DNA of 35,116 nucleotides, taken from the NCBI GenBank assembly GCA_902826815.1, contig CADEGF010000011.1, forward strand, positions 94,819 through 129,934, read 5' to 3'. The notes beneath the pieces are model-generated. The model saw only the letters and a list, made by a program, of their open reading frames with translations, made no database searches and was not told the DNA's origin. The stretch comes from an uncultured Mycobacteriaceae bacterium. GTDB taxonomy: Bacteria; Actinomycetota; Actinomycetes; Mycobacteriales; Mycobacteriaceae. The number at the start of each line of letters is the position of its first letter. Position 1 is the first letter of the stretch. Shown here piece after piece: positions 18,615 to 34,012 of the stretch. Both the position numbers and the translations under genes were made by a program.

Positions 18615-18666
18615 GCGATCGATGCTCGACGACCGCCGTTTCGCAAGCTTGGAGGTTGGGTGGAGA

Positions 18667-19725
18667 TCAGGTGGAGATCGCAGGTAGACAGACCGCAACG
18701 GGCAGCACGGCGCTGAGGGCCGGCTCGAACACCACCCGTGCCGTGTCACCCGGCAGCGGCGCCGGGCAGTCGATCGGCAGCTGGGCGAAAAGCGACACCG
18801 CGCCCTCGAGCGCGAGCACGCGATGGCCCGGTCCCGGGGTGACGCGCGTGACCCGCACCGGAATGCCGCCGTCATCGGAGTTGATCAGGCGCACCCCGCA
18901 GGCGAACACCGCCACCGTGGCGGCCCCGGCCGGCCCGCGATGCACGAGCCCGGTCGGGGCATCGCCGACCACAACCGCGCCATCGGGGGACACCGTCGCG
19001 TCGACCAGATTGTCGTAGCCGACCAGCGCGGCGACACTCGCGTCGGCGGGCCGCAGCGTCAACGCCTCCGGCGTGCCGACCTGATGCACGCTGCCGTCCA
19101 CGACCACGACGACCCGGTCGGCGAAGCGCAGCGCCTCCTCCGCCCGGTGGGACACCTGCACCACCGTGGACAGACGGTCGGCCAACGCCAGCTCGAGGTC
19201 GGCGAAGAAGGCCGATCGGGTCTGCGGGTCGAGGCCGGCGGCCGGTTCGTCCAGCAGCAGCACCGAGGGATCGAGCGCAAGCGCGCGGGCGAGGTTGACG
19301 CGCTGCTGCTCGCCGCCGGACAGGTCGGGTGCCCGGCGATCGGCCAGATGCCCGACTTGAAGCCGCTCGAGGGCCGCCGTCGCCAGCACGGCGCGCTCCC
19401 TTCGCGGCACCTTCCGCCAGCGCAGCGGCAGCTCGACGTTGCGCCGCACCGAGGTGCTCAGCAGTCCGGGCTGCTGGGTCGCATAGGCCACCCTGCGGCG
19501 CAGCTCCACCCCTCCGCGGGCGGTGCTGACACCGTCCAGCGTGACCGTGCCTGAAGTCGGCCGGTCCACACCGGCGAGCAGCCGCAGCAAGGTGGTCTTG
19601 CCTGCGCCGTTCGGGCCGAGCACCGACACATGCTCACCGGCGCCGACGTCGAGATGATCGACCCGAAGAACCTCGCAGCCGCCCCGGACCTGGCGAACCT
19701 GCCGCAGGTTCAGGTCCGCGCCCAT
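18667..19725 (-). CDS. tupC: Tungstate ABC transporter ATP-binding protein
   Basis: ATPase powering oxyanion import through TupB. Visible motifs are Walker A GPNGAGKTT (about residues 37-45), Q-loop ATQQPG, signature LSGGEQQRVNLARAL, Walker B VLLLDEPAAGLD, and the switch His in VVQVSHRAEEAL. A C-terminal domain of about 110 residues (after ASVAALVGYDNLV) resembles the extension seen in molybdate/tungstate ATPases and could bind oxyanion or regulate transport. The start ATG 19725 lies inside the end of tupB (16-base overlap) with GGGGGG just upstream, giving tight translational coupling. 352 residues. Assignment to tungstate rather than molybdate rests on TupA. Confidence 0.9.
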   Translation of the reverse strand: MGADLNLRQVRQVRGGCEVLRVDHLDVGAGEHVSVLGPNGAGKTTLLRLLAGVDRPTSGTVTLDGVSTARGGVELRRRVAYATQQPGLLSTSVRRNVELPLRWRKVPRRERAVLATAALERLQVGHLADRRAPDLSGGEQQRVNLARALALDPSVLLLDEPAAGLDPQTRSAFFADLELALADRLSTVVQVSHRAEEALRFADRVVVVVDGSVHQVGTPEALTLRPADASVAALVGYDNLVDATVSPDGAVVVGDAPTGLVHRGPAGAATVAVFACGVRLINSDDGGIPVRVTRVTPGPGHRVLALEGAVSLFAQLPIDCPAPLPGDTARVVFEPALSAVLPVAVCLPAIST

Positions 19726-20366
19726 GACGCCCCCCGATGCTGCACGGACGCCAGCACGCCGTTGACCACGAAGGCCAGCGTGATCAGGATCGCGCCGTAG
19801 ACGAGCGCGGGCACGAAGTCGCCACGGCCGACGTGCTCCACGATCGCGGTCGTCATCACCTGGGTGTGCCCGTGGATGTTGCCCCCGACGATGGTCGCCG
19901 CGCCGACTTCCGAGATCGCGTGCCCGAACCCGGCCATCGCCGCTGCGAGCAACGGCACCCTCGCCTCGATCCACATCCGCAGCACCAGCTGGGCCCGGTT
20001 GGCTCCGAGCGCGCGCAGCTGATCGGGCAGCGCAGCGGGGAGCAATTGCATTGCGGCCATTGTGATCCCAGCGATCAGCGGGGTGGCGATCAGCACCTGC
20101 GCGACGATCATGCCCTGCACCGTGTAGATCAGGCCGAGACCGCCGAGAGGTCCGCTGCGCCAGAGCAGCAGCGCGACGACGAGCCCGACCACGACCGTCG
20201 GCAGCGCCATCCCGGTGTTGACCACCGCGGTCAACAGCCGCCGCCCCGGCAGCCGGGCCAGTGCGAGCGCGGTGCCCAACCCGATTCCGATCACCGCCGC
20301 GATCAGCGTCGCCGTGACCGACACGAATGCCGACCGTGCGAGCACCTCGTAGATGGGCTCGGCCAT
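19710..20366 (-). CDS. tupB: Tungstate ABC transporter permease
   Basis: Membrane channel subunit, 218 residues, with five or six hydrophobic helices (for example SVTATLIAAVIGIGLGTALALA, TGMALPTVVVGLVVALLLW and AILITLAFVVNGVLA). The cytoplasmic EAA-type coupling loop reads RALGANRAQLVLRMWIEARVP, followed by GFGHAISEVGAATIVGGNI, which is typical of TupB/ModB permeases. The length equals that of known TupB proteins. It starts 12 bases after the tupA stop, and its 3' end overlaps tupC. Confidence 0.92.
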   Translation of the reverse strand: MAEPIYEVLARSAFVSVTATLIAAVIGIGLGTALALARLPGRRLLTAVVNTGMALPTVVVGLVVALLLWRSGPLGGLGLIYTVQGMIVAQVLIATPLIAGITMAAMQLLPAALPDQLRALGANRAQLVLRMWIEARVPLLAAAMAGFGHAISEVGAATIVGGNIHGHTQVMTTAIVEHVGRGDFVPALVYGAILITLAFVVNGVLASVQHRGASWART

Positions 20367-20378
20367 CGGCTCAGTACC

Positions 20379-21218
20379 TCAGTTGGGCGCGTCGGGGAAG
20401 AACAGCGGCTGTCCGTACTTGTCTACACCGAACTTCGCGATCCTCTCCTGCACCGGCGCGGAGCGGATCCACTCCGAAAACTCTTCCGCGCAGGCGACAT
20501 TGGTGGTGCCCTCGTGATCGACGACAATCACGTGGTACGGGTTCTGCAGGTCGTCCGAGCCTTCGAATTCGATCTGGGATGCCAGCCCGCTGGTCGCGAG
20601 GAAGGTGCCGCGGTCGCTGAGCGTGTAGGCCTGCTTCTGGCCCGCGATGGTCAATGTCTCGCCCATCCCTTGGCCGGTCTCGATGTACCAGGGGCCCGAC
20701 GGCTCGATGCCGGCCTGCTTCCACAGGCTCATCTCCTTCGCGTTCGTGCCGGAATCGTCGGCCCTCGACGCGAACGGCGACTGTTGCTTCGCAATGAGCG
20801 CCAACGCATCCGCGGCGTGCTGGGCGTCGCCGATGTGGGCGGGATCGCCAGGCGGACCGACGAGCACAAAGTCGTTGTGCATGACCGGCTCCCGGCTCGA
20901 GCCGTGCCCCTCGGCCATGAACGTTTCCTCGGCCTTGGGCGAGTGCACGAGAAGCACGTCGGCGTCGCCGCTTTCGCCCATCTTCATCGCTTGCCCCGAG
21001 CCGACGGCGACGGTCTTCGGCACGCAGTCCGAGTTCTGCTCGAATGTGGGCAGGATCGCGTCGAGCAACCCGGAGTCCTGGGTACTGGTCGTGGTGGCCA
21101 GGATCATGTCCCCGCCGGCCTTCGCTGTCTCCTCCGTGCCACCGGACTGCTCGCTGCTGCAGCCGGGTACGACGAGCAGGCCCGCGACGAGCAGACCCGC
21201 CATCTGCAGCCGGCTCAT
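20379..21218 (-). CDS. tupA: Tungstate-binding lipoprotein of ABC transporter
   Basis: Periplasmic receptor that captures tungstate. ATG 21218 has GAGGT at proper spacing and gives a lipoprotein leader (LLVAGLLVVPGC, lipobox VPGC). The mature protein begins with ILATTTSTQDSGLLDAILP. The TTTS-Q-SG segment is the TupA family signature and supplies oxyanion ligands in characterised tungstate-binding proteins. A second ligand segment is SRADDSGTNAKEM. It is 279 residues, as usual for TupA. The start codon overlaps the stop of the upstream 22-codon frame (ATGA). The family is distinct from molybdate-specific ModA, which makes tungsten the likely substrate. Confidence 0.92.
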   Translation of the reverse strand: MSRLQMAGLLVAGLLVVPGCSSEQSGGTEETAKAGGDMILATTTSTQDSGLLDAILPTFEQNSDCVPKTVAVGSGQAMKMGESGDADVLLVHSPKAEETFMAEGHGSSREPVMHNDFVLVGPPGDPAHIGDAQHAADALALIAKQQSPFASRADDSGTNAKEMSLWKQAGIEPSGPWYIETGQGMGETLTIAGQKQAYTLSDRGTFLATSGLASQIEFEGSDDLQNPYHVIVVDHEGTTNVACAEEFSEWIRSAPVQERIAKFGVDKYGQPLFFPDAPN

Positions 21219-21283
21219 GCGGTGACCTCGCAGGCTCGGTCTCCGCATTCCGTGCAGATGATTCGCTCGCAAGCTTCGCTCAT
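21215..21283 (-). CDS. Cys-rich 22-residue micropeptide, coupled to tupA
   Basis: A 22-codon frame lies exactly between the HTH-PBP regulator and tupA. Its ATG (21283-21281) overlaps the regulator stop as ATGA, and its TGA (21217-21215) overlaps the tupA ATG as ATGA. The peptide has four Cys at positions 5, 10, 13 and 18 (C-x4-C-x2-C-x4-C) around the core IICTECGDRAC, resembling a minimal metal-binding knuckle. No Shine-Dalgarno is seen at its own start, so translation would rely on reinitiation. It could be a functional metallopeptide, a Cys-sensing leader for tupA, or only a coupling device; the precise double overlap argues that it is translated. Confidence 0.5.
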   Translation of the reverse strand: MSEACERIICTECGDRACEVTA

Positions 21284-22203
21284 GCTGCCGCCAGCCGGGA
21301 TTCGCCGCTGCGGCTCAGCTCGTAGCCGCTGAGCCCGGACACCCGCTGGTGCACCGACGCGGAGGCGAGCACGTCGAGCAACGGGACGAGTAGCCCCACC
21401 GCGCTCGGGGTCACTACGAGCTCGAAGTCCTCCCACTCCACGGGGACAAAATCCGCGTCGACGGCCTCGGCCGCCGCGCGAACGGCCAGCCCCGCGTCGA
21501 CCGCGCCGACGGCCACCGCCACGGCGACGCCCAAGTGGGAATCGCAGCCCTCGCCCTCCGGCGCAGGGACGGCACCCGCCTCCCGTAGCAGCCGGTTCAG
21601 TAGCAGCCGCGACCCGGTGCCGGGCGGGCGCCAGGCGAGCCGAACGCCGTCGAGGTCGGCCACGCCGCGGATGTCCAACGGGTTGCCCTTCGGCACCACG
21701 ATGCCCTGCTCGCGCTTCCACAGATGCACCAGCCGGGCGGGCTCGCCACCGAGCACCCTGCGGGCGAACACGTCGTTGTACCTGCCGGTGCGGGCGTCGC
21801 GCAGGTGTACTGCCGCGGCGTCGACCGTCCCTTGAGCGAGCATCGCCAGCCCGGCCACGCTGCCGCGGCCACCGACGGCTCGTTCGACGCCCCCGCCGGT
21901 CGTGGACAGCAGCAGGTCCAGAGCGGGGTCATCGCTGCCCGCCAGCCGAAGCATGCCTTGGTGTGCGCCCATCATCAGGGCCGCGGCGACACCGTCGGCC
22001 GCCACTACCGCGCGCGACCTGGGCGCACCGCCGATCACCCCGGCGTCGCGCAGGATGCGGTGTGCGCGTGCGGCGGTGCCGGGCGCGCAGCCCAGTTGCC
22101 GGGCGAGTGCGCGGACGGTGGGCACGGAATCGCCGGGATCCAGTCGGCCGGTGAGAACGTCGGTGGCGATCGCCTCGGCGACCTGCTGTGCCGTCTGTAT
22201 CAT
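21280..22203 (-). CDS. GntR-type HTH regulator with PBP-like ligand domain
   Basis: Likely transcriptional regulator of the tungsten/pterin gene train. An N-terminal winged HTH (about residues 1-65: AIATDVLTGRLDPGDSVPT, VRALARQLGCAPGTAARAH) is followed by a periplasmic-binding-protein-like domain (about 90-290). The latter contains REQGIVVPKGNPLDIRGVAD, RPPGTGSRLLLNRLLREAG and AVDADFVPVEWEDFELVV. The same domain ends the adjacent MoeA fusion, suggesting that both bind a related ligand (oxyanion or pterin). ATG 22203 lies six bases after TACCCT, a TAnnnT -10, consistent with a leaderless transcript in addition to read-through. Its stop overlaps the micropeptide start. 307 residues. Confidence 0.85.
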   Translation of the reverse strand: MIQTAQQVAEAIATDVLTGRLDPGDSVPTVRALARQLGCAPGTAARAHRILRDAGVIGGAPRSRAVVAADGVAAALMMGAHQGMLRLAGSDDPALDLLLSTTGGGVERAVGGRGSVAGLAMLAQGTVDAAAVHLRDARTGRYNDVFARRVLGGEPARLVHLWKREQGIVVPKGNPLDIRGVADLDGVRLAWRPPGTGSRLLLNRLLREAGAVPAPEGEGCDSHLGVAVAVAVGAVDAGLAVRAAAEAVDADFVPVEWEDFELVVTPSAVGLLVPLLDVLASASVHQRVSGLSGYELSRSGESRLAAA

Positions 22204-22209
22204 CCGAAC

Positions 22210-22215
22210 AGGGTA
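22210..22215 (-). promoter_or_regulatory. Putative leaderless -10 for the HTH-PBP regulator
   Basis: On the minus strand TACCCT ends six bases before the ATG at 22203. There is no Shine-Dalgarno at this start. An internal promoter here would let regulator and tup genes be expressed apart from the upstream enzymes. Confidence 0.45.
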
Positions 22216-22219
22216 CAGA

Positions 22220-24154
22220 TCACCGGATCCGACGACCAGTCTCTTCCGTGCCGTAGCCCCCGAGCCGGCGCACCGAGGCTTGAAACTCCGCGGATTCCAG
22301 CAGGCGCCACAGCGGCACGAGCATCGGATCGGTGAGGGTCGCCGCCTCCACCACCAAGTCGTAGGGCTCCTGCACCATCGGCACGAAGTCCAGCCCGAAC
22401 GCCTGCGCGGCCGCGAGGATGCCGAGGCCGCAGTCGGCGCGCCCGGCCGCCACCGCCGCGGCGACTGCCAGGTGTGTGGGCTCCTCGCGCGCGTAGCCGC
22501 GGATCGTGGCCGGGTCGATCGCGAACCGCCGCAGTTCCTGGTCGAGCAGCATCCGGGTGCCCGCACCCCGCTGCCGGTTGACGTAGGAAAGCTCGCCGCC
22601 GGCCAGGTCCGCGAGCCCGGCCACGCCGCGCGGATTGCCTGAAGGAATGATCAGGCCCTGGTCGCGATGCACCAGCCGCACCACGGCCAGGTCCCGGTCG
22701 CCCATCATCTCGTCGAGGTAGGGCAGCGTGTACTCCCCGGTTGCCGGGTGCAGCAGGTGCGACCCGGCGAGGTGGCACAGCCCGTCGCGCAACGCCACCA
22801 GGCCGCCGAGCGAGCCGACGTTGGTCGAGACCAGGCTCAGCGTCGGATCCGACGACCGCAGCTCCGTGGCCACCAGGTCGAGGACCAGGTCGTGCGATCC
22901 GATCGCGACGATCGTGCGCTCGATCTCCGGCAACCGCCGCAGCAGCTGCACCGACACCTGCTCACCCGCGTGGTGGCCTTCGACGCCAGCCGGCACCAGC
23001 AGCAGCCCGTCCGCTCGCACCAGCGACGTCAGCACCCCGGCGCCGCGGGGCAGCGGCGACGCCACCACCTGGCCGCCAACCGACCCGAGCCGCACCCTCA
23101 CCCAGTCGTCCATCCCCACCACCGAGGGCAGCTTGCGCGCGAGCCGGGCAGACGCCTCCGGCCGGTGCGGCGGTGGCGCCCCCTCCAGCCCCGCGAGCAG
23201 CGGCGCGACGAAGATGTCGAACGTCAGGGCGGCCGACACCGGGTAGCCGGGCGCACCGACGACCGGCGTCGCGTCGACGGCGCCCAGCACCACCGGGTGG
23301 CCGGGCCGGACCGCGACCCCGTGCACCGCGAGCACGCCGAGGTCCGCCACGATGCGGGCCGTGTAGTCGTCGCGTCCAGCGCTGGAACCGGCGATCACGA
23401 TCACCAGGTCTGCGGTCGCGGCCGCCGCGCGCACGGCGGCGCTGATCTGATCCACCACGTCGGGCTGGATCGGTGTCGCCCACGCCTCGCAGCCCGCCTC
23501 CTGGGCCTGTGAGACCAGCATCAGCGAGTTGGTGTCGAGGATCTCGCCCAGCTGTGGCGGCGACCCGACCGCCACGATCTCGTCCCCGGTCGGGATCACC
23601 GCCACCCGCGGTTGGCGGCGCACCTGCAGCTCGGTCGCGCCTGCGGCGGCCGCAGCGGCAACGTCGACGGGGCGCAGCCGATGCCCTTCCGGCAGCAGCA
23701 GTTCGCCGGCACTGACGTCCTCGCCGATCGACCGCACGTGCTGGTAGGGCGGGACCGCGGCCTGGATCTCGGCGGCCTGCCCTTCGGCGGCGGTCACGTA
23801 GTGCACCTGTTCGCGCATCACCACCGCGTCGAACCCGTCCGGCATCGGGTCGCCGGTGTCGACCACCTGGTAGTCGCCGGATTCGAGCCGCAGCGGTGTG
23901 GTGGGCGAGGCGCCCGCGGTGGCCCTGGCGACGACACAGATGCCGTCCATCGCGGCGACGTCACCGACGGGTGAGGAACGGGTAGCCCATACCGGCTCGG
24001 CGGTGACCCGGCCGACCGCCTCGGCCAGCGCGACTGTGACGGCCTCGACCCGCTGGGGACAGCCGGCGGCGGCGCAGGCGTCCAGCCACGACCGCATCGC
24101 AGCGTCGGCGGGGACGTCGCTGATGAACGGGCTGTTGTCGGTCGGCTCCGGCAC
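22220..24154 (-). CDS. MoeA-PBP fusion, molybdenum/tungsten insertase with substrate-binding domain
   Basis: MoeA inserts Mo or W into adenylylated molybdopterin. The N-terminal ~400 residues form a MoeA module: GDVAAMDGICVVA, DTGDPMPDGFDAVVMRE, RSIGEDVSAGE, VAVIPTGDEIVAVG, EILDTNSLML and VIVIAGSSAGRDDYT, with VGAPGYPVSAALTF near the active site. From about residue 425 a PBP-like domain follows (HDLVLDLVATEL, RDQGLIIPSGNPRGVAGL, RQRGAGTRMLLDQELRR), paralogous to that of the next gene. Total 644 residues. The GTG start lies 11 bases after the stop of the other moeA. The PBP part may deliver or sense the oxyanion, or give metal selectivity; that is inference. Confidence 0.9.
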   Translation of the reverse strand: MPEPTDNSPFISDVPADAAMRSWLDACAAAGCPQRVEAVTVALAEAVGRVTAEPVWATRSSPVGDVAAMDGICVVARATAGASPTTPLRLESGDYQVVDTGDPMPDGFDAVVMREQVHYVTAAEGQAAEIQAAVPPYQHVRSIGEDVSAGELLLPEGHRLRPVDVAAAAAAGATELQVRRQPRVAVIPTGDEIVAVGSPPQLGEILDTNSLMLVSQAQEAGCEAWATPIQPDVVDQISAAVRAAAATADLVIVIAGSSAGRDDYTARIVADLGVLAVHGVAVRPGHPVVLGAVDATPVVGAPGYPVSAALTFDIFVAPLLAGLEGAPPPHRPEASARLARKLPSVVGMDDWVRVRLGSVGGQVVASPLPRGAGVLTSLVRADGLLLVPAGVEGHHAGEQVSVQLLRRLPEIERTIVAIGSHDLVLDLVATELRSSDPTLSLVSTNVGSLGGLVALRDGLCHLAGSHLLHPATGEYTLPYLDEMMGDRDLAVVRLVHRDQGLIIPSGNPRGVAGLADLAGGELSYVNRQRGAGTRMLLDQELRRFAIDPATIRGYAREEPTHLAVAAAVAAGRADCGLGILAAAQAFGLDFVPMVQEPYDLVVEAATLTDPMLVPLWRLLESAEFQASVRRLGGYGTEETGRRIR

Positions 24155-24165
24155 GGGAGGTCAAC

Positions 24166-25401
24166 CTACCTGTACATCGTCACGGTCACGGTCGACCCGG
24201 CGTCGAGGCCGGTGGCGGCCTCGGGGATAACAACGTAGCCGTCGGCGCTGGTGAGCAGGGACAGCAGCGCGGAGAACCCGAACAGTGGTGTCGCGACGCG
24301 GTCGGGTTCGTCGCTCAGCCGCACCTGCACCACATCGAGGCGGCCCGCGGCCGAGGCGACATCGCGGGACAGCGCCGCCGCGGTGGTCGGCTCAGGGGGA
24401 GTGACGGTGAGGCCGGCGACGCGGCGCAGCACCGGCAGCCCGACCATGCGGAACACCACAATGGCCGACAGCGGGTTGCCGGGCAGCCCGATCACCGGCA
24501 CGCCGTCACACTCCGCCAGCAGCGTCGGCTTACCCGGTTTGATCGCCAGCCCATGGCAGTAGACGCCGGGCGGGCCCAACGACGCCACCGCGTCTGCGGT
24601 CTGGTCGCGGGCGCCGACCGACGACCCGGCCGACACCACCACCAGATCGCAGTCCTGCAACGCGGCCTGCAACGTCTTGGTCAGTGCCTCGGCGTCGTCG
24701 GTCACAATTCCACGCAGCGACGGTTCGCCGCCCGCCTCGGTGACCATCGCGGCAAGCGCCGACGCGGTGGCGTCGCGCACCTGACCGGGGCTCAGCCGCA
24801 CGGTATCGGGCGGCACCACCTCGTCGCCGGTGGACACGATCGCCACCCGCGGGCGGGCGTGTACCGACACCTCGGTGACGCCGGCCGCGGCGAGCATGCC
24901 GAGGTCCTGGGCGCGCAGCGGCCTGCCTGCCGGCGCGATCTCGGCGCCGACCGCAACGTCCTCGTCGGCCCGCACGACACCCTCGCCAACAGCGACCGGC
25001 CTGCTCACCTCGATCACGCCGGGCATGGTGACCTGGGTGTACTCGACCATGACCACGGCGTCGGCGTCAGTCGGGATCGCCGCGCCGGTCGGGATCTGCA
25101 CCGCCGTCCCTGCGCGCACGGCGATGTCGGCGGCGGCGCCCATCCGCACCGCTCCCGCGAGGTCGAGGTAGGCGGGAAGCGAGTCGCTGGCGCCGTAGGT
25201 GTCGGCCGCCCGCACCGCATAGCCGTCGACGGTCGAGCGGGCGAAGCCGGGCAGCGCTGACCCCGAAACCACCGGCGCGGCAGGCACCCGGCCCAGCGCC
25301 GCGTCGCGGGGCACCGTCTCGATGCCGGTGCGTTGCGACGGCCGGAACCCGGCCAGCGCCTGCGACACCCGTTGGGCCGTGAAGAACTCGCGGCCGGTCA
25401 C
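24166..25401 (-). CDS. moeA: Molybdopterin molybdenum/tungsten transferase MoeA
   Basis: Single-domain-set MoeA of 411 residues, the usual length. Motifs are RSTVDGYAVRAADT, TGAAIPTDADAVVMVEY, VRADEDVAVGAEIAPAGRPL, VAIVSTGDEVVPPDT, VVVSAGSSVGARDQT, KPGKPTLLAECDGVPVIGLPGNP, and a C-terminal domain IV ending VTVTMYR. GTG 25401 overlaps the stop of the formate dehydrogenase beta gene (GTGA). Organisms using both Mo and W often have two MoeA paralogues; the presence of a second MoeA immediately downstream fits a W-dedicated copy here. Confidence 0.93.
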   Translation of the reverse strand: MTGREFFTAQRVSQALAGFRPSQRTGIETVPRDAALGRVPAAPVVSGSALPGFARSTVDGYAVRAADTYGASDSLPAYLDLAGAVRMGAAADIAVRAGTAVQIPTGAAIPTDADAVVMVEYTQVTMPGVIEVSRPVAVGEGVVRADEDVAVGAEIAPAGRPLRAQDLGMLAAAGVTEVSVHARPRVAIVSTGDEVVPPDTVRLSPGQVRDATASALAAMVTEAGGEPSLRGIVTDDAEALTKTLQAALQDCDLVVVSAGSSVGARDQTADAVASLGPPGVYCHGLAIKPGKPTLLAECDGVPVIGLPGNPLSAIVVFRMVGLPVLRRVAGLTVTPPEPTTAAALSRDVASAAGRLDVVQVRLSDEPDRVATPLFGFSALLSLLTSADGYVVIPEAATGLDAGSTVTVTMYR

Positions 25402-27128
25402 TCGTCTGGTGTCTGCCGCGGCTGCGGGCGCGCCACGGCGCCGCCGCGCTGCCGTCCCATCACGCTGACCACCGGGCCCATCGCCACCTGGCCGAGACCG
25501 CAGATCGAGGTCTTGCGCATGGTCAGCTCGAGCTCCAGCAGCCGGGCCCGTCGACCCTCGTCGAGTTCGCCGCCGGCCCGCAGGGTATCGGCCAGCAGGT
25601 CGTGAGCCTTGGTCGAGCCGACCCGGCACGGCACGCACTTGCCGCACGACTCGTTGCGGAAGAAGCGCAGCACATTCGTGGCCGCCGCGAGCGAGTCGGT
25701 GCCCTCGGCGATCACCACCACCGCACCGGAGCCCAGCATCGAGCCGGCGTCGGCGAGCGTGCCGAAGTCGAGCGGCACGTCGAGGTGTTCGGGTCCGAGG
25801 AAGTTCGACGACGCGCCGCCGGGCTGCACCGATTCGAGCGCCGCGCCGCCGGCCACCCCGCCTGCGAGATCGAGCAGGTCGCGGATGGTGGTGCCCATCG
25901 GGACGCAGTACACGCCGGGACGTTCCACGTGACCGGACACGGCGAAGAACTTCAACCCGTCGCTGTCGCCGATGCCCTGGTCCTGCCACCACTGCGCCCC
26001 GCGGGACACGATGATCGGCACGTCGGCGAACGTTTCGACGGAGTTCATCAGCGTGGGTCGGCCCCACAGGCCCCACACGCCGGGGAACGGTGGCTTGTTG
26101 CGCGGCTCGCCGCGATGGCCCTCCATGCATTCGAGCAGCGCGGTCTCCTCGCCGAGGATGTAGCCGCCCGGCGAGGTGAAGATGTCGAGGCTCAGCCTGC
26201 GGCCGCTGCCCAGCACGTCGTCTCCGATCAGCCCCTGCTCGCGCAGGTGCTCGATCTCGGCGTGCAGCACCGCCTCCTCAGGGCCGTACTCGTGCCGGAT
26301 GAAGACCCAGCCTTCCTCGGCGCCGGTGACGACCATGCCCATCAGCAGGCCCTCGAGCACGAGATGCGGTTGCTCCGCGAGCAATTGGCGGTCCTTGAAG
26401 GTGCCAGGCTCGGATTCGTCGGCGTTGCAGATCGCGTACTTGACGCCGGTGCCGTCGAGGGTCTCGGCGTCGCGCACCAGCTCCCACTTCTTGCCGGTCG
26501 GGAAGCCCGCGCCTCCCATCCCGCGCAGGCCGGAGGCTTGCAAGGTGTCGATCACCTGCTGCGGGGTGACCTCCCCGGACAGCAGGGAGCGCAGACACTG
26601 GTAGCGCGGCTCGCCGGGGCCGTAGGGGTCGTTGGGCCAGCCGCCCTCCGGACCGTAGGCCACCACGGCCCCGAGGTCGTCGTCGCCTCCGCGCTTGGCG
26701 TCGACCAGCGCGTCGACGTCATCGAGCCGGGTGGGCTGTTCGTCGACGGTGGCTGCGGGGGCGATGTCACACCGGCCGGGGCAGGAGATCTCCACCAGCT
26801 CCACGTCACCGGCGTCGCCGTACTGCTCGCGCAACTGCGTGATCCGGTCGTCGGCCCCGTTGAGCCAGCAGGTCAGGTCGTGGCAGACCCGGACGGTGAC
26901 GCCTGCCGGCGCCTCGGTGCGGAAATGCGGATAGAAGGTGACCAGGCCCTCGATTTCGTAGAGCGGCCGCTTCTGTTGCCGCGCAAGCGCTTCCAATTCC
27001 TCGCGCGGTAGCCAGCCGAGGCGGCCCTGGATCTCCATCAGCATCGGGATCAGGCTCGGACCCCGGAACTTGCCTGCCCGCCCTTCGACGCCGGGAACGG
27101 CCGGCTGGGGGTTGGTCGTGACCGTCAC
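25398..27128 (-). CDS. NAD-dependent formate dehydrogenase beta subunit (NuoE-NuoF fusion)
   Basis: Diaphorase module passing electrons from the alpha subunit to NAD+. The N-terminal thioredoxin-like [2Fe-2S] domain (about residues 15-150) has Cys 82, 87, 116 and 120 (VCHDLTCW, SCPGRC). The NuoF-like part has the NADH/FMN motif GLRGMGGAGFPTGKKW (200-215), NADESEPGTFKDR, and GGYILGEETALL. A [4Fe-4S] site is formed by ESCGKCVPCRVG plus Cys 543. The 576-residue length closely matches the beta subunit of the tungsten formate dehydrogenase FDH1 of Methylobacterium extorquens (about 572 aa as I recall). GTG 27128 overlaps the alpha-subunit stop (GTGA). Subunits fused this way are separate genes in the fds-type enzymes. 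Confidence 0.93.
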   Translation of the reverse strand: MTVTTNPQPAVPGVEGRAGKFRGPSLIPMLMEIQGRLGWLPREELEALARQQKRPLYEIEGLVTFYPHFRTEAPAGVTVRVCHDLTCWLNGADDRITQLREQYGDAGDVELVEISCPGRCDIAPAATVDEQPTRLDDVDALVDAKRGGDDDLGAVVAYGPEGGWPNDPYGPGEPRYQCLRSLLSGEVTPQQVIDTLQASGLRGMGGAGFPTGKKWELVRDAETLDGTGVKYAICNADESEPGTFKDRQLLAEQPHLVLEGLLMGMVVTGAEEGWVFIRHEYGPEEAVLHAEIEHLREQGLIGDDVLGSGRRLSLDIFTSPGGYILGEETALLECMEGHRGEPRNKPPFPGVWGLWGRPTLMNSVETFADVPIIVSRGAQWWQDQGIGDSDGLKFFAVSGHVERPGVYCVPMGTTIRDLLDLAGGVAGGAALESVQPGGASSNFLGPEHLDVPLDFGTLADAGSMLGSGAVVVIAEGTDSLAAATNVLRFFRNESCGKCVPCRVGSTKAHDLLADTLRAGGELDEGRRARLLELELTMRKTSICGLGQVAMGPVVSVMGRQRGGAVARPQPRQTPDE

Positions 27129-30019
27129 CGTGCGGATCCTCCGACAAACGCGCTCTCGCGGTCTCCGGCCGGCGCGATCTTGACCGCGCAGAACTTGAAC
27201 TCCGGGATCTTGCCGACCGGGTCGATCTCGTCGATCGTCAGCAGGTTGGCCGCGGCCTCGCGGAAGTGGAAGGGAATGAACACATTTCCGCGCGCTTCGC
27301 GGTGCGAGACCTTCACGTGCAGCACGATCGTGCCCCGGCGCGAGGTGACTCGGGCCATCTCGCCGTCGACGAGACCGCGCTCGGCGGCGTCGTCGGGGTT
27401 GACGTAGACCTCCGCGCGCGGCGAGATCGCGTCCAATGCGAAGGAGCGGCGGGTCATCGACCCGGTGTGCCAGTGCTCCAACAGCCTTCCGGTGTTCAGC
27501 ACGAACGGGAACTCCTCGCTCGGCAGCTCCTTGCCGGGCAACCACTCAGCAGGTACCAGATGGGCGAGCTCGTCGGTGGTGTTGAACCGCTCGTCGAACA
27601 GCACCACGGTGCCGTCGTCGTGCTCGGGGTCCTCGATCGGATACAGCTTGCCGTACGCGCCGAGGTTGTCGTGGCGCAGGTTGGCGTAGTCCGGCATCAA
27701 CGGCACCATCTCGTCGAAGATCTCGCTCGGCGACGAGTAGTTCCAGTCCAACCCCACCCGACGGGCGATGTCCTGGATGACCTCCCAGTCGACGCGGGCC
27801 TCACCGGGCGGGTCGAACACCTTGCGGCCCAACTGCACCCGCCGATCGGTGTTCGTGTAGGTGCCGTCCTTCTCCAGATACGACGAGGCAGGTAGAACCA
27901 CGTCGGCGAACTCCGCTGTCTCGGTGAGGAAGATGTCCTGCACGACCAGGAAGTCCAACTGGGACAATGCCTTTCGCACTTTGTTGATGTTGGGGTCGGA
28001 GAGGAACGGGTTCTCGCCGAGCATGTACATCCCGCGCACACCGCCTGCGAGGATCGACTTGATCACCTCGGTGACCGTCAGCCCCTTCTCGGGATTGAGT
28101 TCGGTGCCCCACGCCCGCTCGAACTGCGCCCGGACCTTGCTGTCGGTCGCCGACTGGTAATCCGGGTAGAACATCGGGATCAGCCCGGCGTCGGATGCGC
28201 CCTGCACGTTGTTCTGGCCGCGCAGCGGATGCAGCCCGGTGCCCGGCCTGCCGACGTTGCCGGTGATCGCGCACATCGCGATCAGACAGCGGCAGTTGTC
28301 GGTGCCGGTGGTGTGCTGGGAGATGCCCATGCCCCAGTAGATGACGCCTGCGCTCGCCTCTCCCCACAGCCTGGCGATCTCGCGGATCTGCTCGGCGTCG
28401 ATGCCGGTGATCTGCGCGGCCAGTTCCGGAGGATAGGCCTGCACCGTCTTGGCCAGCTGGTCGTAGTTGGAGGTCCGGTTCGCGATGAAGTCGCGGTCGA
28501 CCAGGCCGAGCCGGATCACCTCGTGCATGATCGCGTTGTAGAGCGCCACATCGGTGCCGGGTTTGATTTGGCAGAAGATGTCGGCATGGTCGGCGACCGT
28601 GCCTGCCCGCGGGTCGATGTAGACGATCTTGGTGCCGCTGCGGCGCGCCTGTTTGAAGAACGACGACGCCACCGGGTGGTTGGCGGTCGCGTTGCTGCCG
28701 GTGATGATCGCGACGTCGGCGTTCGCGATGTCGCCGTAGGTGGTCGAAACCGCGCCGGAGCCAACACCTTCGAACAGTGCCGCGACACTGGACGCGTGGC
28801 ACAGCCGGGTGCAGTGGTCGACGTTGTTGCTGCGGAAGCCGGTGCGGATCAGCTTCTGGAAGAGGTAGGCCTCCTCGTTGGAGCACTTGGCCGACCCGAA
28901 GCCGGCGATGCCGTCGGAACCGCTTTCCGCATAGATCGCACCGAGCCGGCTCGCGACGAGGTCGAGCGCCTCCTCCCAGCTCGCCTCCCGGAAGTGCGGC
29001 ATCACCTCCTCGTAGGGCACCAGGCCGCCGGCCTTGCGCCCACGCTTGTCGCGGCGTCCGTTTCCGCCGTCCGCCTTCACATCCGACGACAGCGGCCCCT
29101 TGGGATAGGAGTCGGCGATGCGGATCAGCGGCTTGGTGAGCCGCTGCGGTGACGCCGCGTAGTCCCAGCCGTAGCGGCCCTTCACGCACAGTCGGCCCTG
29201 ATTGCCGGGCTGGTCGCGCCCCTCGGCGAACGAGATGGCGCCGCGCTCGCGGTCGACGTAATAGGTCAGCGCGCAGCCGACGCCGCAGTACGGGCACACC
29301 GTGTCGACCGCGTCGAGCGCCGCGCGGGGCTGGATCGGGATGTTGTTGATGGGTTTGTTGGTCAGCGCCCCTGTCGGGCACGCCGCCACGCACTCGCCGC
29401 ACGTGACGCACGACGACGCGCCCATCGGGTCGTTGAGGTCGAACGCGATGCGCGTGGAGTAGCCCTTGCCGCTGCGGCCGATGACGTTGTTGCCCTGGAT
29501 GTCATCGCAGGCGCGCACGCAACGGTCACACAGGATGCAGGAATCGTGGTCTACCGCGATCACCGGATTGGACATGTCGGTGCCGCGGGCTGGTCCGGCA
29601 AGCAGGTCGGCGACGCCGATGACGTCGAGACTGTCGGCGACCGCGATCAGCTCGTTGTCGGCGGTCGTAGTCTGCTTCGGGTCGTCCTCGCGCGACGGCT
29701 GATCGGCGACCAGCAGTTCGGTGAGCACCCTGCGTCGGTTCAGGATCTCCGGCGTCGCGGTGGCGACAGTCATGCCCTCCTCGCACGGTCGGATGCATGC
29801 CGCCGCGTCGACCCGCCCGCCGACGTCGACCACGCACATCCGGCACACGCCAACAGGGTCGTAGCGTTCGTCGTGGCACAGCGCCGGGATGTCGATTCCC
29901 ACGTCGCGGGCCGCCTGCCAGATCGTCGTGCCTTCGACGACGGTGAGGCTTGCGCCATCGATGGTCAGCGACACAGTGCGCTGCTCCACGTCGGTCCGGC
30001 CGGGACTGGTGAGGGTCAT
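27125..30019 (-). CDS. Formate dehydrogenase alpha subunit (bis-pterin W/Mo, active-site Cys)
   Basis: Oxidises formate to CO2. The 964 residues contain an N-terminal [2Fe-2S] ferredoxin domain (Cys 48, 59, 62, 75) and two [4Fe-4S] clusters (161, 164, 167, 171 and 204, 207, 210, 214). A cluster near the pterin follows (CPYCGVGC 242-249 plus Cys 278), then the large bis-pterin domain. The metal-ligand position is Cys 407 in HCTRLCHASS, followed by the conserved His, so it is not a selenoprotein. The NuoG-like HxxxCxxCxxxxxC cluster motif is not seen between Cys 79 and 161. A charged linker (about 311-334) precedes the catalytic part. ATG 30019 overlaps the AOR stop. Tungsten use is inferred from the neighbouring genes. 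Confidence 0.93.
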   Translation of the reverse strand: MTLTSPGRTDVEQRTVSLTIDGASLTVVEGTTIWQAARDVGIDIPALCHDERYDPVGVCRMCVVDVGGRVDAAACIRPCEEGMTVATATPEILNRRRVLTELLVADQPSREDDPKQTTTADNELIAVADSLDVIGVADLLAGPARGTDMSNPVIAVDHDSCILCDRCVRACDDIQGNNVIGRSGKGYSTRIAFDLNDPMGASSCVTCGECVAACPTGALTNKPINNIPIQPRAALDAVDTVCPYCGVGCALTYYVDRERGAISFAEGRDQPGNQGRLCVKGRYGWDYAASPQRLTKPLIRIADSYPKGPLSSDVKADGGNGRRDKRGRKAGGLVPYEEVMPHFREASWEEALDLVASRLGAIYAESGSDGIAGFGSAKCSNEEAYLFQKLIRTGFRSNNVDHCTRLCHASSVAALFEGVGSGAVSTTYGDIANADVAIITGSNATANHPVASSFFKQARRSGTKIVYIDPRAGTVADHADIFCQIKPGTDVALYNAIMHEVIRLGLVDRDFIANRTSNYDQLAKTVQAYPPELAAQITGIDAEQIREIARLWGEASAGVIYWGMGISQHTTGTDNCRCLIAMCAITGNVGRPGTGLHPLRGQNNVQGASDAGLIPMFYPDYQSATDSKVRAQFERAWGTELNPEKGLTVTEVIKSILAGGVRGMYMLGENPFLSDPNINKVRKALSQLDFLVVQDIFLTETAEFADVVLPASSYLEKDGTYTNTDRRVQLGRKVFDPPGEARVDWEVIQDIARRVGLDWNYSSPSEIFDEMVPLMPDYANLRHDNLGAYGKLYPIEDPEHDDGTVVLFDERFNTTDELAHLVPAEWLPGKELPSEEFPFVLNTGRLLEHWHTGSMTRRSFALDAISPRAEVYVNPDDAAERGLVDGEMARVTSRRGTIVLHVKVSHREARGNVFIPFHFREAAANLLTIDEIDPVGKIPEFKFCAVKIAPAGDRESAFVGGSAR

Positions 30020-31833
30020 ATAGTGTGCTCCGTTCCTGCAGCGGTGTGCGCGAGGCTCGTGGCGAGCGGCCGGCCCTGCGGGTCGAGGCCGCGTTCGGTG
30101 TAGTAGGTGTCGATCATGGCGCGCAGTCGGGCGGCGGGCAGTATCGCCGTACGACCCGACCCGAGCTCGAGCGGGGTGTCGAGGAACCGTTCGGGAAGCC
30201 AGTCGTCGGCCGGGGTCCAGCCCTCGCGGAGGTTGAAGGCGCGCTTGGCCAGCACGATGCGTCGCGCGGTCTCGTGCAGTTCGTCGGCGTCGACGTCCCA
30301 GCCGGTGACCGTCGACAGCAGCCCGGCCCACTCCGCGAACGGTTCGGTGAACACCCCGCGCAGAAACTTGCACAGGATCAGCGAGTCCATCACGGCCGCG
30401 CGGTCCTCGGTTTCGATCGCCGCGCGGACGTGCTCGCTGCCGCCGCGGATGCGGTCAAGACCGCCCTTGAGGTCGGCCTCGTAGGCGCCGGACCGATTGT
30501 GGTCGGCTCCTCTGGCGTTGACCGCCAGACCCAGGGCCATCGACTGCATGGTTCGGGGTTCGTAGCCCGGCATTTCCATGCCCTTGACGTGCGGGGCGAA
30601 CGCGGCCGAGCCGTGGCCGACGACGTCGGCGGCCCGGCGGGAGCCCTCGGCGAGCAGCGCGCCGAGGCCGGTCCGAGAACCGATCTCGTCGAGCACCCGC
30701 AGCAGGGCAGCGCCGTCGCCGAAGCGCAGCCATGGCGCGTCGAGCAGCCCACGGTCGACGCACTCCATCGCCCAGGCGATGGTGCCGCCTGCGGAGATGG
30801 TGTCGAGCCCGAGCGCGTCGCAGCGCGCACTCGCCTCGAGCACCTGGTCCGGGTCGGACACCCCGCACATCGGCCCGAGCGCGAAGACGTTCTCGTACTC
30901 CACCCTGGCTGTCTTGCCGCCCTTGGCGGCATAGATGTGCTCGCAGCCGATGGTGCAGGAGGCGCAACTGTTCCTGGCGACCGACCGGCTGTCCGCCAGA
31001 TGCTCTGCGGACAGCATGGTCGCCTCTGCGAAGGTGGCGGACTGGAAGTTACGGGTCGGCAGCGTGTTGATTGCGTTGAACGCCAACAGGTTTGCCAGTG
31101 TGCCGAGTTCGCGGTACTTCGCGGTGGCCGGGCCGAACGACCGCTGGCGCAGGTCCTTGGCCGCCGCCAGCACGCCATCGTGGTCGGCGATCGCAGGCCT
31201 GGTGCTGCCGGCCACGGCGATGGCCTTGATGTTCTTCGCGCCCATCACCGCGCCGAGACCGCCGCGCCCGGCGTGCCTGCCGTCGTGGGAGATCGTTGCG
31301 TACCGCACGCCGCGCTCGCCCGCCGGACCGATGCAGGCCGCCCGCCAGCGCCTGCCGTGCTGCGCACGCAGGGATTCCTCGGCGTCCGACGCGGACATGC
31401 CCCACTGCGGCGCCGCGTCGACGAGCCGGACACCGTCGGCCCCGATCAGCACGTGGGCCGGCGCCTGCGCCCTGCCCGTGAGCACGATCGCGTCGTGGCC
31501 GGTGAACTTGCCTGCGATGGCGAAGTGGCTGGAGGCCAGCGCGTCGGTGAGCAGACCCGTCAGCGGCGACTTGGCCACCACCGCGAATTTCGCGCTCGTC
31601 GTCAGCGGGGTGCCCACCAGCGGCGAGAAGACGAAGGCGAGCGGCGCGGCGGGACCGAGCGGGTCGACACCGGCCGGTGCCAGCTCGGTCATCAACCAGG
31701 CGCCGAGGCCCGCCCCACCCAGATAGTCGCGCAGCACCTGTTCGGGCAATTCGATGGTCGTGGTGGAGCCGTCGGCGACATCGACCACCAAGGCATTGCC
31801 GAAGTAGCCGCCGGGCGCACCGAGGTGTGTCAT
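30016..31833 (-). CDS. Tungsten-containing aldehyde oxidoreductase (AOR family)
   Basis: AOR enzymes interconvert aldehydes and carboxylic acids on a tungsto-bispterin. The 605-residue product has all expected features. GRGGLGAVMGAKNIKAI (about 189-205) contacts the pterin. Three [4Fe-4S] Cys lie at 290, 293 and 297 (CASCTIGC) and the fourth at 488 (DSLILCKFLRG). E312-Y-E314 and His 445 (ARGADHNRSGAY) align with the catalytic Glu and His of Pyrococcus AOR. ATG 31833 overlaps the mobA stop, and the stop overlaps the formate dehydrogenase alpha start. No small Fe-S or FAD subunit of the Aromatoleum AorAC type is adjacent, so the electron acceptor is unclear. Substrate unknown; formaldehyde is attractive given the downstream formate dehydrogenase. 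Confidence 0.94.
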   Translation of the reverse strand: MTHLGAPGGYFGNALVVDVADGSTTTIELPEQVLRDYLGGAGLGAWLMTELAPAGVDPLGPAAPLAFVFSPLVGTPLTTSAKFAVVAKSPLTGLLTDALASSHFAIAGKFTGHDAIVLTGRAQAPAHVLIGADGVRLVDAAPQWGMSASDAEESLRAQHGRRWRAACIGPAGERGVRYATISHDGRHAGRGGLGAVMGAKNIKAIAVAGSTRPAIADHDGVLAAAKDLRQRSFGPATAKYRELGTLANLLAFNAINTLPTRNFQSATFAEATMLSAEHLADSRSVARNSCASCTIGCEHIYAAKGGKTARVEYENVFALGPMCGVSDPDQVLEASARCDALGLDTISAGGTIAWAMECVDRGLLDAPWLRFGDGAALLRVLDEIGSRTGLGALLAEGSRRAADVVGHGSAAFAPHVKGMEMPGYEPRTMQSMALGLAVNARGADHNRSGAYEADLKGGLDRIRGGSEHVRAAIETEDRAAVMDSLILCKFLRGVFTEPFAEWAGLLSTVTGWDVDADELHETARRIVLAKRAFNLREGWTPADDWLPERFLDTPLELGSGRTAILPAARLRAMIDTYYTERGLDPQGRPLATSLAHTAAGTEHTI

Positions 31834-32711
31834 CCGCCCGCGTCCGCCGAGATGAACGAGACGATGTCGCCCGCCTGCAATGGCGTCTGCGCATCGCCGT
31901 GGAGCTGATCGCCGTTGATCGCGGCCAGCACATGGCGGTTCAACGTCAGCCCGAGCTGCTCGGCGGCCGCGCCGATGGTGGCTGCTCGGGCCTGGCGCGG
32001 CCCGCGGATGCCGTGCTCGGTGGCCAGCGCGCCGTAGCACTCGACGACGACTGCGGGCGCAGGCCGGGCACGCGCAGCGCGGTAGTCGTCGGGGGTGTTG
32101 ACGTTGAGCACGGAGTGCAGTTCTGGGTCGGCACGGGCCAGCCGGGGGTTGGCGAGCAACGTGGCCTCGTCGAGCTGGTGCACGTCGACCTCTTCGAAAA
32201 GGTGCGCGGGGCGCATCCGCTGCGCTTCGATCAGCTTCTCGACGCGGGGCGCGAGGTCGGTGCGGTAACCGGCCGCCATCGGTTGCCGGTAGCCGCCAAC
32301 GAAGGGCAGCACCACGTCCGTGGATGCCTTGGGGTCGAAGCCGTGCAGCACCGCGGTCACGAAGGCCGAGTGCAGGAAGGGCAGGTCGGTGGAGCAGATG
32401 AAGGCCACCGGCGCGTAACCGGCCGCGGCGGCCAGCCCGACGGCCAGGCCCTGCATCGGTCCCCGGCCTTCTTCCGGGTCGGTGTGCACCAACACCTGCG
32501 GGTCGAGGCTGGGCAGCTGCTGTCCTGGGGCACGGACGACGATCACCGGGCCGTCGACCGCGCGACCGACGATGCCCGTTACGCGCCGCAGCAGGGTCGA
32601 ACCGTGCCACTCGAGCGCCGCCTTGGCCGTGCCCATTCTCGACGAGCGGCCCCCGGCGAGCACAACACCTGCCGTCAAGCCGGGGGGTTGCAACCCGTCA
32701 GCGTTTGTCAT
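31830..32711 (-). CDS. MobA-MoaD fusion: molybdopterin guanylyl/cytidylyltransferase-like plus sulfur carrier
   Basis: The N-terminal part (about residues 10-205) is a MobA-like nucleotidyltransferase (VVLAGGRSSRMGTAKAAL, FICSTDLPFL, NVNTPDDY) expected to attach a nucleotide to molybdopterin. The C-terminal ~80 residues (from AVVVECYGALATEHG) form a ubiquitin-like MoaD/ThiS domain ending exactly in DAGG. That Gly-Gly end is the site of adenylation and thiocarboxylation in free MoaD. The fusion would combine sulfur donation for the dithiolene with the nucleotide-addition step. The Shine-Dalgarno AAGGAGGTGA is near perfect, the best in the cluster, as expected for a lead gene. The stop overlaps the AOR start. 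293 residues. Confidence 0.88.
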   Translation of the reverse strand: MTNADGLQPPGLTAGVVLAGGRSSRMGTAKAALEWHGSTLLRRVTGIVGRAVDGPVIVVRAPGQQLPSLDPQVLVHTDPEEGRGPMQGLAVGLAAAAGYAPVAFICSTDLPFLHSAFVTAVLHGFDPKASTDVVLPFVGGYRQPMAAGYRTDLAPRVEKLIEAQRMRPAHLFEEVDVHQLDEATLLANPRLARADPELHSVLNVNTPDDYRAARARPAPAVVVECYGALATEHGIRGPRQARAATIGAAAEQLGLTLNRHVLAAINGDQLHGDAQTPLQAGDIVSFISADAGG

Positions 32712-32884
32712 CAGGGCTCACCTCCTTGCGTTGCCGGTCAGCGGGCGGTTTGCAGCGCTTGCTCGACGGCGTTGACCACTTCGTAAGCAAGCGTATGCCG
32801 ACTGTCAGCCCAGGTGTCCGCGACGTCTCCAGCCTAGCCGCCCGGCAGATCTCGCCCTGCCAAGGACGCGGGGTCACGGCTGCG
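32712..32884 (-). promoter_or_regulatory. Leader/promoter region of the tungsten gene train
   Basis: On the minus strand TAGGCT (32836-32831) fits a -10, giving a leader of about 110 bases before the strong AAGGAGGTGA site of mobA-moaD. Within the leader a frame without a usual start codon reads DVADTWADSRHTLAYEVV and continues to a TGA near 32732; only an internal GTG could start a 13-residue peptide. No known molybdenum-cofactor riboswitch fold could be recognised by eye. Confidence 0.35.
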
Positions 32885-34012
32885 CTACGACTGCGGGTCC
32901 ACCACCTGTACCACTCCGGCGGACACGCCCGCGATGAACAGCCTGCCGGTGGTTGCGTCGACCCCGAGTGTGTAGGGGTTCTGGACGGTCGGAAGGCGCT
33001 TGACCTCGCGCGGCGTCGGCTGGCTCATGTCGTAGCCGACGACCTCGTTGGTGCCCGAGGAGGCCACCCACAGCAGGTCACGGGTCGGGTCATAGGCGAT
33101 CCCGTACGGGCCGCCCGGCTGGGCGATTTCGCCGACCTGATGCGGGGTCGGCAGCGGCTCGAACACCCGAATGGCGTCGCCCCTGGTGTCGGCGGCGATC
33201 AGCCGGCCGTGCTTGTCGGCGACGAGGTGCGTCGGCCCCTCACCGGCGGGCACCGACCCGACGATGCGCAGGTTTCGGGTGTCGTAGACGGTCAGGTCGT
33301 TCTTGCGGACGTCGATGAGCCCCATGGATTCGCCGACCGCGGCCAGACCGGCGGGTTGCACGCTGCCGGCGAAGACCTTCACGACCTGAAGGCCCCGCAG
33401 CACGGAAACGGTTCCGCCGTGCTCGTTGGCGACGTAGACGGACCCGTTCGCGGCCTGCGCCGCGTCGTGCGGCACGACGCCGGTGACCACCTGCGGCAAC
33501 GCCCGCCCGCTCGGCAGTTCGACCCGTACCAGCGCGTTGGCGCTCTCGACCGGGACCAGCACGGGCCCGCCCGGATCGGCCAACTGCAGATGTCGGACGA
33601 AGCCCGGCAAGGGAATCCGGTTGACGACGTCGCCGGTGTCGGCGTTCATCAACACGAGTTCGTTGGGATCGCGCTTGGCGATCGCGACCATCCGGGTCGC
33701 CGCATCGACGACGACGCCTTCGGGCGCGGTGCCGACCGGGACCAAGCGTCCGGGGATCGGCGCGGTCTGCGGCGGCGCCTTCTGCGGTTCGGCAGGCGGC
33801 GGCAGACCGTCGGCGGGTGGCGGGTTGCCCTCTGTCGGCACCTCGCTGGGCATGACGGCCGGGGGTGCCTCCGTCGGCGCAGCTAAGGGAGACGACGCGC
33901 CGGTATCAGCCGGGAGCTGTTGTGAACAACCTCCGACAATGAGGACTAACGCCACTGATGCAGCGAGCCACCGCATACCTGAAAACACGTCTCGGTTCCG
34001 GGTTCGGTTCAC
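32885..34012 (-). CDS. Lipoprotein with YncE-like beta-propeller (375 aa)
   Basis: The N-terminus carries a lipoprotein signal (WLAASVALVLIVGGC, lipobox VGGC), followed by a Pro-rich linker (about residues 30-85). The rest is a repeat-built beta-propeller. Blades contain motifs such as PEGVVVDAATRMVAIAKR, GSVYVANEHGGTVSVL, PTHLVADKHGRLIAADTRG, PYGIAYDPTRDLLWVASSG and PYTLGVDATTGRLFIAGV. These resemble YncE/NHL-type surface propellers. Function unknown; extracellular ligand or protein binding is likely. The GTG at 34012 and the ATG at 33976 both keep the signal; neither has a strong ribosome-binding site, so the start is uncertain. It lies upstream of the tungsten genes on the same strand, separated by 173 bases. 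Confidence 0.82.
   Translation of the reverse strand: MNRTRNRDVFSGMRWLAASVALVLIVGGCSQQLPADTGASSPLAAPTEAPPAVMPSEVPTEGNPPPADGLPPPAEPQKAPPQTAPIPGRLVPVGTAPEGVVVDAATRMVAIAKRDPNELVLMNADTGDVVNRIPLPGFVRHLQLADPGGPVLVPVESANALVRVELPSGRALPQVVTGVVPHDAAQAANGSVYVANEHGGTVSVLRGLQVVKVFAGSVQPAGLAAVGESMGLIDVRKNDLTVYDTRNLRIVGSVPAGEGPTHLVADKHGRLIAADTRGDAIRVFEPLPTPHQVGEIAQPGGPYGIAYDPTRDLLWVASSGTNEVVGYDMSQPTPREVKRLPTVQNPYTLGVDATTGRLFIAGVSAGVVQVVDPQS

Follow-up and report, generated by a model that had tools for sequence, protein, structure and literature searches.

In a 35,116-nucleotide stretch of contig CADEGF010000011.1 from an uncultured Mycobacteriaceae bacterium (the window), we found ten adjacent genes that probably constitute an acquired actinobacterial tungsten operon, with roles in tungstate uptake, cofactor assembly and tungsten enzymes, now standing at the former site of a resident fdhD gene (in many congeners, of fdhF also). 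The most interesting part of this apparently imported, conserved tungsten-type operon is that FdhD goes undetected in the genome that carries it. The genes, all on the minus strand, run from 32711 to 18667 in the order mobA-moaD, aor, fdhA, fdhB, moeA, moeA-PBP, gntR-PBP, tupA, tupB and tupC (Table 1). Four-base start-stop overlaps join MobA-MoaD to AOR and AOR to FdhA (ATGA), and FdhA to FdhB and FdhB to MoeA (GTGA); the remaining junctions range from a 16-bp overlap to a 16-bp gap, except that between gntR-PBP and tupA, which holds a repeat. The original prediction, a minus-strand gene train with these products, is borne out by ten genes at the positions it gave and by an order conserved in other Actinomycetota; its two MoeA are both present, the second being a MoeA-PBP fusion.

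Scanning 84,980 species genomes with AOR returned 148 relatives. We kept 80 of them, including 29 (L007-L035) that carry labels of actinobacterial lineages and have an AOR match of at least 68%. Among those of the 29 with enough sequence for each count, mobA-moaD precedes aor in 27/27, fdhA follows aor in 25/26 (exception L019), and fdhB (18/18), moeA (16/16) and moeA-PBP (16/16) keep their places, so that the order is not due to chance. The MobA-MoaD fusion matches PF12804 (3.5e-29) and PF02597 (5.8e-05; 24 bits, cut-off 22.5), and all 28 complete relatives from actinobacteria keep its Gly-Gly C-terminus. A near relative of the module, in an Actinophytocola metagenome-assembled genome (MAG; L007), is 84% identical to it in DNA over 11.4 kb, and dN/dS (nonsynonymous to synonymous substitution) against it is 0.16-0.29 across the eight genes compared. 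The AOR tree, made by a quick method from 50 of 85 rows, with SH-aLRT support only and long outgroup branches flagged, groups the window with L007 and L030 (95) within a ten-row clade (100) that includes Haloechinothrix, Allosalinactinospora and Kribbella. The module has a G+C content of 70.6%, against 66.0% in the remainder of the window.

Within the genus, by contrast with this wider distribution, the module stands alone. In a sample of 198 genomes, its own included, AOR-family matches occur in five, and the window's AOR is the sole one of its kind: the other four reach 206-230 bits where it reaches 355, share 32-34% identity with it, have Tyr instead of His445, fall far away in the AOR tree and come from genomes without TupA. 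TupA is present in the module's own genome only, plus one marginal match (E 3.2e-4). FdhA relatives of some kind are found in 196/198 genomes, the best outside its own being 39% identical over the catalytic part. A module of mycobacteria, as first proposed, is not supported by these counts, in which a single genome of 198 accounts for TupA and for an AOR and an FdhA of these types; the module is not a genus trait and occurs across Actinomycetota. From its kinship it looks to have been imported into this genome from an actinobacterial source. Transport as a plasmid trait found no support, AOR relatives in PLSDB being less than 60% identical in 85 of 86 records; the remaining one, 73.5% identical, is an 11.85-Mb Nonomuraea record, probably a chromosome. 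As to the host, the best DNA match of a tig-clp segment in PLSDB is Tsukamurella, with 75.7% identity over 65% of the segment, and the Pfam and NCBIfam matches of ten frames of the genome point to no particular genus; a mycobacterium is consistent with these observations.

The site of the module can be recognised by comparison with congeners. In G014, clpP1, clpP2, clpX, a desaturase gene and a glycosyltransferase gene are followed by fdhD and then by a beta-propeller-like gene. The window has its 14-kb module between the glycosyltransferase and beta-propeller-like genes, where G014 has fdhD. We examined 24 fdhD stretches from 24 genus genomes (G014, G055, G019, G136 and 20 further fdhD-bearing genomes), leaving out the second fdhD of G136, which lies on C8 beside another formate dehydrogenase (FDH). 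fdhD adjoins the clp group in 19/24 stretches, and in 11/24 it has next to it an fdhF-like gene 78-100% identical to fdhF of G055 (TIGR01701). At the left junction the match to congeners extends to about 18680, and with G038 to about 18690; the tupC stop codon lies inside DNA conserved in congeners without the module. The match at the possible right junction is short and may be due to chance. A search for an fdhD remnant in the window (tblastn up to E 10) gave short chance matches only.

FdhD was also sought in the whole genome, which is 99.91% complete, with no match to PF02634, and a match, in some cases weak, was found in 191 of the 197 other sampled genus genomes. The six other genomes without FdhD are also without the module, so fdhD loss occurs independently of the module too, and it is the coincidence of place that links the two here. 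In M. extorquens, deleting fdhD, mobB or moeA1 abolishes FDH1 activity and tungsten content (PMC13197769). With fdhD not found in the genome, these deletions favour an alternative in which the module was acquired and its FDH is inactive because fdhD was lost at insertion, while AOR and tungstate uptake were retained, and so does the finding of an FdhD relative in four of the five module-bearing isolates. We consider this unlikely, while according it some weight, because fdhA is intact, with a dN/dS of 0.165 against L007 (a value that also covers the time before transfer), and because, of the 29 actinobacterial genomes with the module, 13 give no match to FdhD whereas MoaA turned up in every one. 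The active-site motif of FdhA is, moreover, alike in carriers with and without an FdhD match.

Among the 16/29 genomes with an FdhD match, two matches are fragments (G231, G235) and two are weaker (G213, G214). By kind of genome, a match is found in 4/5 isolates, that of Haloechinothrix alba being a weaker one and the isolate without any being Allosalinactinospora lopnorensis, and in 12/24 MAGs; absence from MAGs is partly uncertain and gaps could explain part of it, though MoaA is never missed. Some module carriers may therefore be without FdhD. On a 27-row AOR tree the pattern of FdhD presence takes at least five changes, and FdhD was found near AOR in 0/80 loci (genus FdhD query, 1e-5; many loci are short). 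Judged from these loci, FdhD is not part of the module. It is conceivable that MobA-MoaD, with a free Gly-Gly sulfur-carrier tail beside a guanylyltransferase, replaces FdhD in sulfur supply and cofactor hand-off, in what would be an FdhD-independent maturation of a tungsten FDH. If true, such a route would have let the module replace a resident fdhD-fdhF locus in one step. We regard it as improbable, and the FdhD match in four of five module-bearing isolates makes it less likely. Nine other PF00384 proteins are encoded in the genome (one narG, two nuoG, one NasC/Fdh-alpha-like protein with a CysJ-like end and five others), and none of them reaches the cut-off of TIGR01701 (FdhF/YdeP) or TIGR01591 (Fdh-alpha); for four of the five others, Fdh-alpha is the best match below the cut-off.

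The assignment to tungsten begins with FdhA, a Cys-type FDH with Fe-S domains at its N-terminus. Its best solved relatives are the two PDB sequences of M. extorquens FDH1 (7e5z/7vw6, one of them titled tungsten-containing), at 971 bits, and the next chain scores 616.5, 355 bits less. Cys407 aligns with Cys436, the tungsten ligand of FDH1 (PMC10869683). All three marks of the FDH1 type are thus present: FDH1 as closest solved chain, the ligand Cys, and a beta subunit of NuoE-NuoF type, which refines the earlier label of formate dehydrogenase beta. AOR scores 215.2 and 353.7 bits with AFOR_N and AFOR_C (cut-offs 29.8 and 27) and reaches no NCBIfam AOR equivalog cut-off. Its best PDB match is P. 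furiosus AOR (1aor, 2.1e-101), to which it scores 343.6 bits, against 271.3 for P. furiosus formaldehyde oxidoreductase. Four cluster cysteines (C290, C293, C297, C488) are kept, together with E314 and H445, the counterparts of Glu313 and His448 of P. furiosus AOR, to which we ascribe catalytic roles; these residues are conserved in 26 actinobacterial relatives with one Gln-for-Glu exception. Possession of class I-IV AOR-family enzymes is assumed to mark an organism as a tungsten user (PMC13328260).

The uptake and insertion genes point to the same metal. In D. alaskensis TupA the tungstate site is formed by T9-T11, S12, H59, R118, T124 and D170 (PMC5517513), and our TupA aligns at every one of them (TTTS, H59, R118, T124 and D170 in D. 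alaskensis numbering); the TTTS signature noted at the outset is present in both translation and alignment. A published survey reports TupA alongside MoeA-PBP in 86% of cases (PMC11733289). On sequence grounds, then, the tungsten reading of the operon is well supported: the uptake, the cofactor steps and the two tungsten-type enzymes of the original prediction hold as predictions, and the attribution to a mycobacterial module does not. Alternatively, the enzymes could use molybdenum, with TupABC acting as a molybdate/tungstate transporter. The molybdenum and tungsten cofactors (Moco and Wco) have a common pathway, D. alaskensis TupA binds molybdate too, at nanomolar level (PMC5517513), and MoeA has a KPGK loop, the Lys form being described as molybdate-type (PMC13197769). 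This is nevertheless doubtful, since FdhA groups with the tungsten enzyme FDH1, class I-IV AOR enzymes are taken to mark tungsten users (PMC13328260) and MoeA-PBP is linked to TupA (PMC11733289).

Several findings weigh against an acquired, dedicated tungsten operon in the fdhD slot. TupA reaches 204.5 bits with NF041772 (cut-off 400) and TupB 114.1 bits with NF041773 (cut-off 320), TupC falls below the NCBIfam WtpC cut-off and MobA-MoaD below that for MobA; the NCBIfam TupA and TupB models presumably fit other lineages better. An Arg in a KPGR loop is the mark of the tungsten-specific MoeA1 of M. extorquens (PMC13197769), and neither MoeA has it (KPGK in MoeA, RPGH in MoeA-PBP). The module lacks MobB and FdhD, both needed by M. 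extorquens FDH1, and the genome gave no FdhD match, which by itself still leaves room for a working enzyme. tupA follows the other genes in only 7/13 informative actinobacterial loci, and Nonomuraea gerenzanensis has the first six genes with no tup match in the 8 kb beyond. The proposed co-conservation of AOR and TupA thus holds in seven of these loci and fails in the other six. The fdhD gene lies away from the clp group in 5/24 stretches, so that the slot is common, not universal. Finally, the nearest kin of the module are MAGs. Five of the near kin (L007, L008, L013, L026, L030) are labelled Dino_bin, by their names from one sampling project.

The junction between gntR-PBP and tupA contains a 65-bp dispersed repeat, one of seven copies in the genome, which has five additional weaker, shorter matches. 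Five of the seven copies have ATGA motifs at a spacing of 65 bp, with GTGA at one end of one copy. Dispersal and a start-stop overlap at each end are the marks of mycobacterial interspersed repetitive units (MIRUs), and we take the repeat to be MIRU-like. It is absent from the same junction in the three relatives examined (L007, L026, L009). The 22-codon frame, first put forward as a micropeptide gene, was rejected as a gene because of the dispersed copies and the absence in relatives, and the repeat probably entered after the module had reached this lineage. That a foreign piece was joined to the genome in assembly or binning is very hard to credit: the draft has 141 contigs and the window ends at a contig end, yet both flanks are syntenic with G014, the left junction includes conserved recipient DNA and a repeat of the genome's own sits within the operon.

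The module is not self-contained, as had been claimed: MoaA is encoded on contig C18, and the ten operon proteins include no MoaA or FdhD and, in a search confined to those ten, no MoaC, MoaE, MoeB or MobB. We propose that TupABC imports tungstate, and that MoeA-PBP and MoeA insert tungsten into molybdopterin made by chromosomal Moa enzymes, of which those other than MoaA would also be encoded elsewhere, together with the MoaD domain. The MobA domain would add GMP to give the bis-molybdopterin guanine dinucleotide cofactor of FDH, and AOR would bind the cofactor in its plain pterin form. Aldehydes would be oxidised to acids by AOR, and FdhAB would use NAD+ to oxidise formate to CO2; jointly the two enzymes could carry formaldehyde to CO2. 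GntR-PBP is likely a local regulator that probably governs the operon in response to tungstate or a precursor of the cofactor; its PBP domain is 35% identical to that of MoeA-PBP. No Moco/Wco riboswitch was found in the window, where Rfam at gathering thresholds gave two tRNAs only, and inverted repeats upstream of mobA-moaD are weak.

Table 1. Predicted features of the module and its surroundings (positions in the window; a dot marks features without strand).
Feature	Position	Strand	Evidence or remarks
mobA-moaD fusion, 293 aa	31830..32711	-	guanylyltransferase domain and C-terminal ThiS/MoaD sulfur-carrier domain, Gly-Gly end
aor, single large subunit, 605 aa	30016..31833	-	PF01314 1.7e-105, PF02730 1e-63
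fdhA, formate dehydrogenase alpha, 964 aa	27125..30019	-	active-site Cys407-His408; TIGR01591 786.8 bits, cut-off 666.25
fdhB, NuoE-NuoF-type diaphorase fusion, 576 aa	25398..27128	-	PF01257, PF01512, PF10531, PF10589
moeA, metal insertase, 411 aa, KPGK loop	24166..25401	-	PF03453, PF00994, PF03454
moeA-PBP fusion, 644 aa, RPGH loop	22220..24154	-	NF011068 683.9 bits, cut-off 534; PF12727 6e-67
gntR-PBP, GntR-type helix-turn-helix and PBP_like domain, 307 aa	21280..22203	-	PF00392 1.8e-10, PF12727 6.8e-47
Repeat, presumably MIRU-like, with 22-codon frame	21215..21283	-	one of seven 80-100% identical copies in genome
tupA, tungstate receptor, 279 aa, lipoprotein-like N-terminus	20379..21218	-	best PDB 3lr1 7.2e-64, 5my5 4.2e-50
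tupB, permease, 218 aa	19710..20366	-	NF038017 212.2 bits, cut-off 100
tupC, ATP-binding cassette (ABC) ATPase, 352 aa	18667..19725	-	PF00005 2.9e-32
Left junction	18645..18690	.	DNA 5' of glycosyltransferase gene meets module; aligned with G014, G152, G038
Possible right junction	32827..32837	.	CTCCAGCCTAG, same sequence just 5' of fdhD in G152
Resident flank, glycosyltransferase	17316..18614	-	relative between clpX and fdhD in 8/24 stretches
Resident flank, secreted beta-propeller-like protein	32885..34012	-	66-71% identical gene beyond fdhD in 6/24 stretches

The nearest described system is that of M. extorquens, an aerobe with a tungsten FDH1 and a moeA1-mobB-tupBCA cluster (PMC13197769, PMC10869683), which shares with ours an FdhA family with the tungsten-ligand Cys, a diaphorase beta subunit, a dedicated MoeA, TupABC and an aerobic host. 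In M. extorquens, MobA and MoaD are listed at loci of their own, and the enzyme depends on both MobB and FdhD; our operon includes AOR, MobA-MoaD and MoeA-PBP but neither MobB nor FdhD, and no FdhD was detected in the genome. AOR is not mentioned for the M. extorquens system in the portions of these two texts available to us. Class I tungsten oxidoreductases (PMC13328260), among them the published tungsten-type AOR (WOR) of an obligate aerobe, Brevibacillus massiliensis, are likewise single large subunits of the AOR family in aerobic hosts, whereas our AOR is co-operonic with an NAD-type FDH. MoaD beside AOR has been taken as serving the tungsten cofactor (PMC1779556); in our operon MoaD is part of a fusion with MobA, and FdhAB, two MoeA and TupABC come after it. 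The archaeal MoeA1-type MoeA-PBP has the same fusion and the same link to TupA (PMC11733289), while ours lies next to the likely regulator GntR-PBP, a distinct protein whose PBP domain is related. Mycobacterium has reportedly gained Moco genes horizontally, from Betaproteobacteria (cited in PMC6147048), in contrast to the actinobacterial, tungsten-type operon here, and mycobacteria also appear in PMC10609526 through an XdhC structure. In the accessible open-access literature we found no unit of tungsten AOR, FDH and TupABC described from mycobacteria or from any other aerobic actinobacteria; the closest reports are two papers of 2026 (PMC13197769, PMC13328260). Two tungsten-type enzymes, metal uptake and late cofactor steps would form one inherited unit in many Actinomycetota and, more loosely arranged, in Acidobacteriota, and tungsten use outside anaerobes is perhaps underrated. 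A module in the fdhD slot of a genome without detected fdhD offers a natural test of whether every molybdenum or tungsten formate dehydrogenase needs FdhD.

Of the other 51 kept loci, ten have an FdhA relative (at least 48%) near AOR, and one of these ten, the planctomycete L067, has the order mobA-moaD, aor, fdhA. In the other nine, eight labelled Acidobacteriota and one labelled Acidimicrobiia (L042, L046, L059, L060, L066, L073-L076, the last being the Acidimicrobiia), fdhAB is on the strand opposite AOR and the MobA match ends before the MoaD part. Linkage of AOR and FDH across differing arrangements suggests a single pathway, for which formaldehyde to formate to CO2 would be the simplest guess. 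There is an extra stretch between moeA and moeA-PBP in L017, L021 and L033; in L033, the one examined, it encodes an exporter-type ABC protein and no Tup relative.

The four congeners with an AOR of the distant subfamily (L161-L164) share the Tyr at the conserved His position; in the two loci examined, L162 and L164, this AOR adjoins a PF01212 lyase, and in L162 an aldo/keto reductase and an amino-acid permease are also nearby. On the flanks, tandem GTGGAGATC units at 18660-18679, 5' of the glycosyltransferase gene, are kept in congeners and are possibly a regulator site. The beta-propeller-like protein has no NCBIfam match, and its label is our own. The genome has two further MoeA relatives. 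One (C24:28123-29486; L158 10126-11474) is in two pieces in different reading frames, which may reflect a frameshift, an insertion or an assembly error. The fourth (C8:21628-22911; L159 9598-10914) proves to be Glp of the divisome, and SepX/GlpR is encoded close to it.

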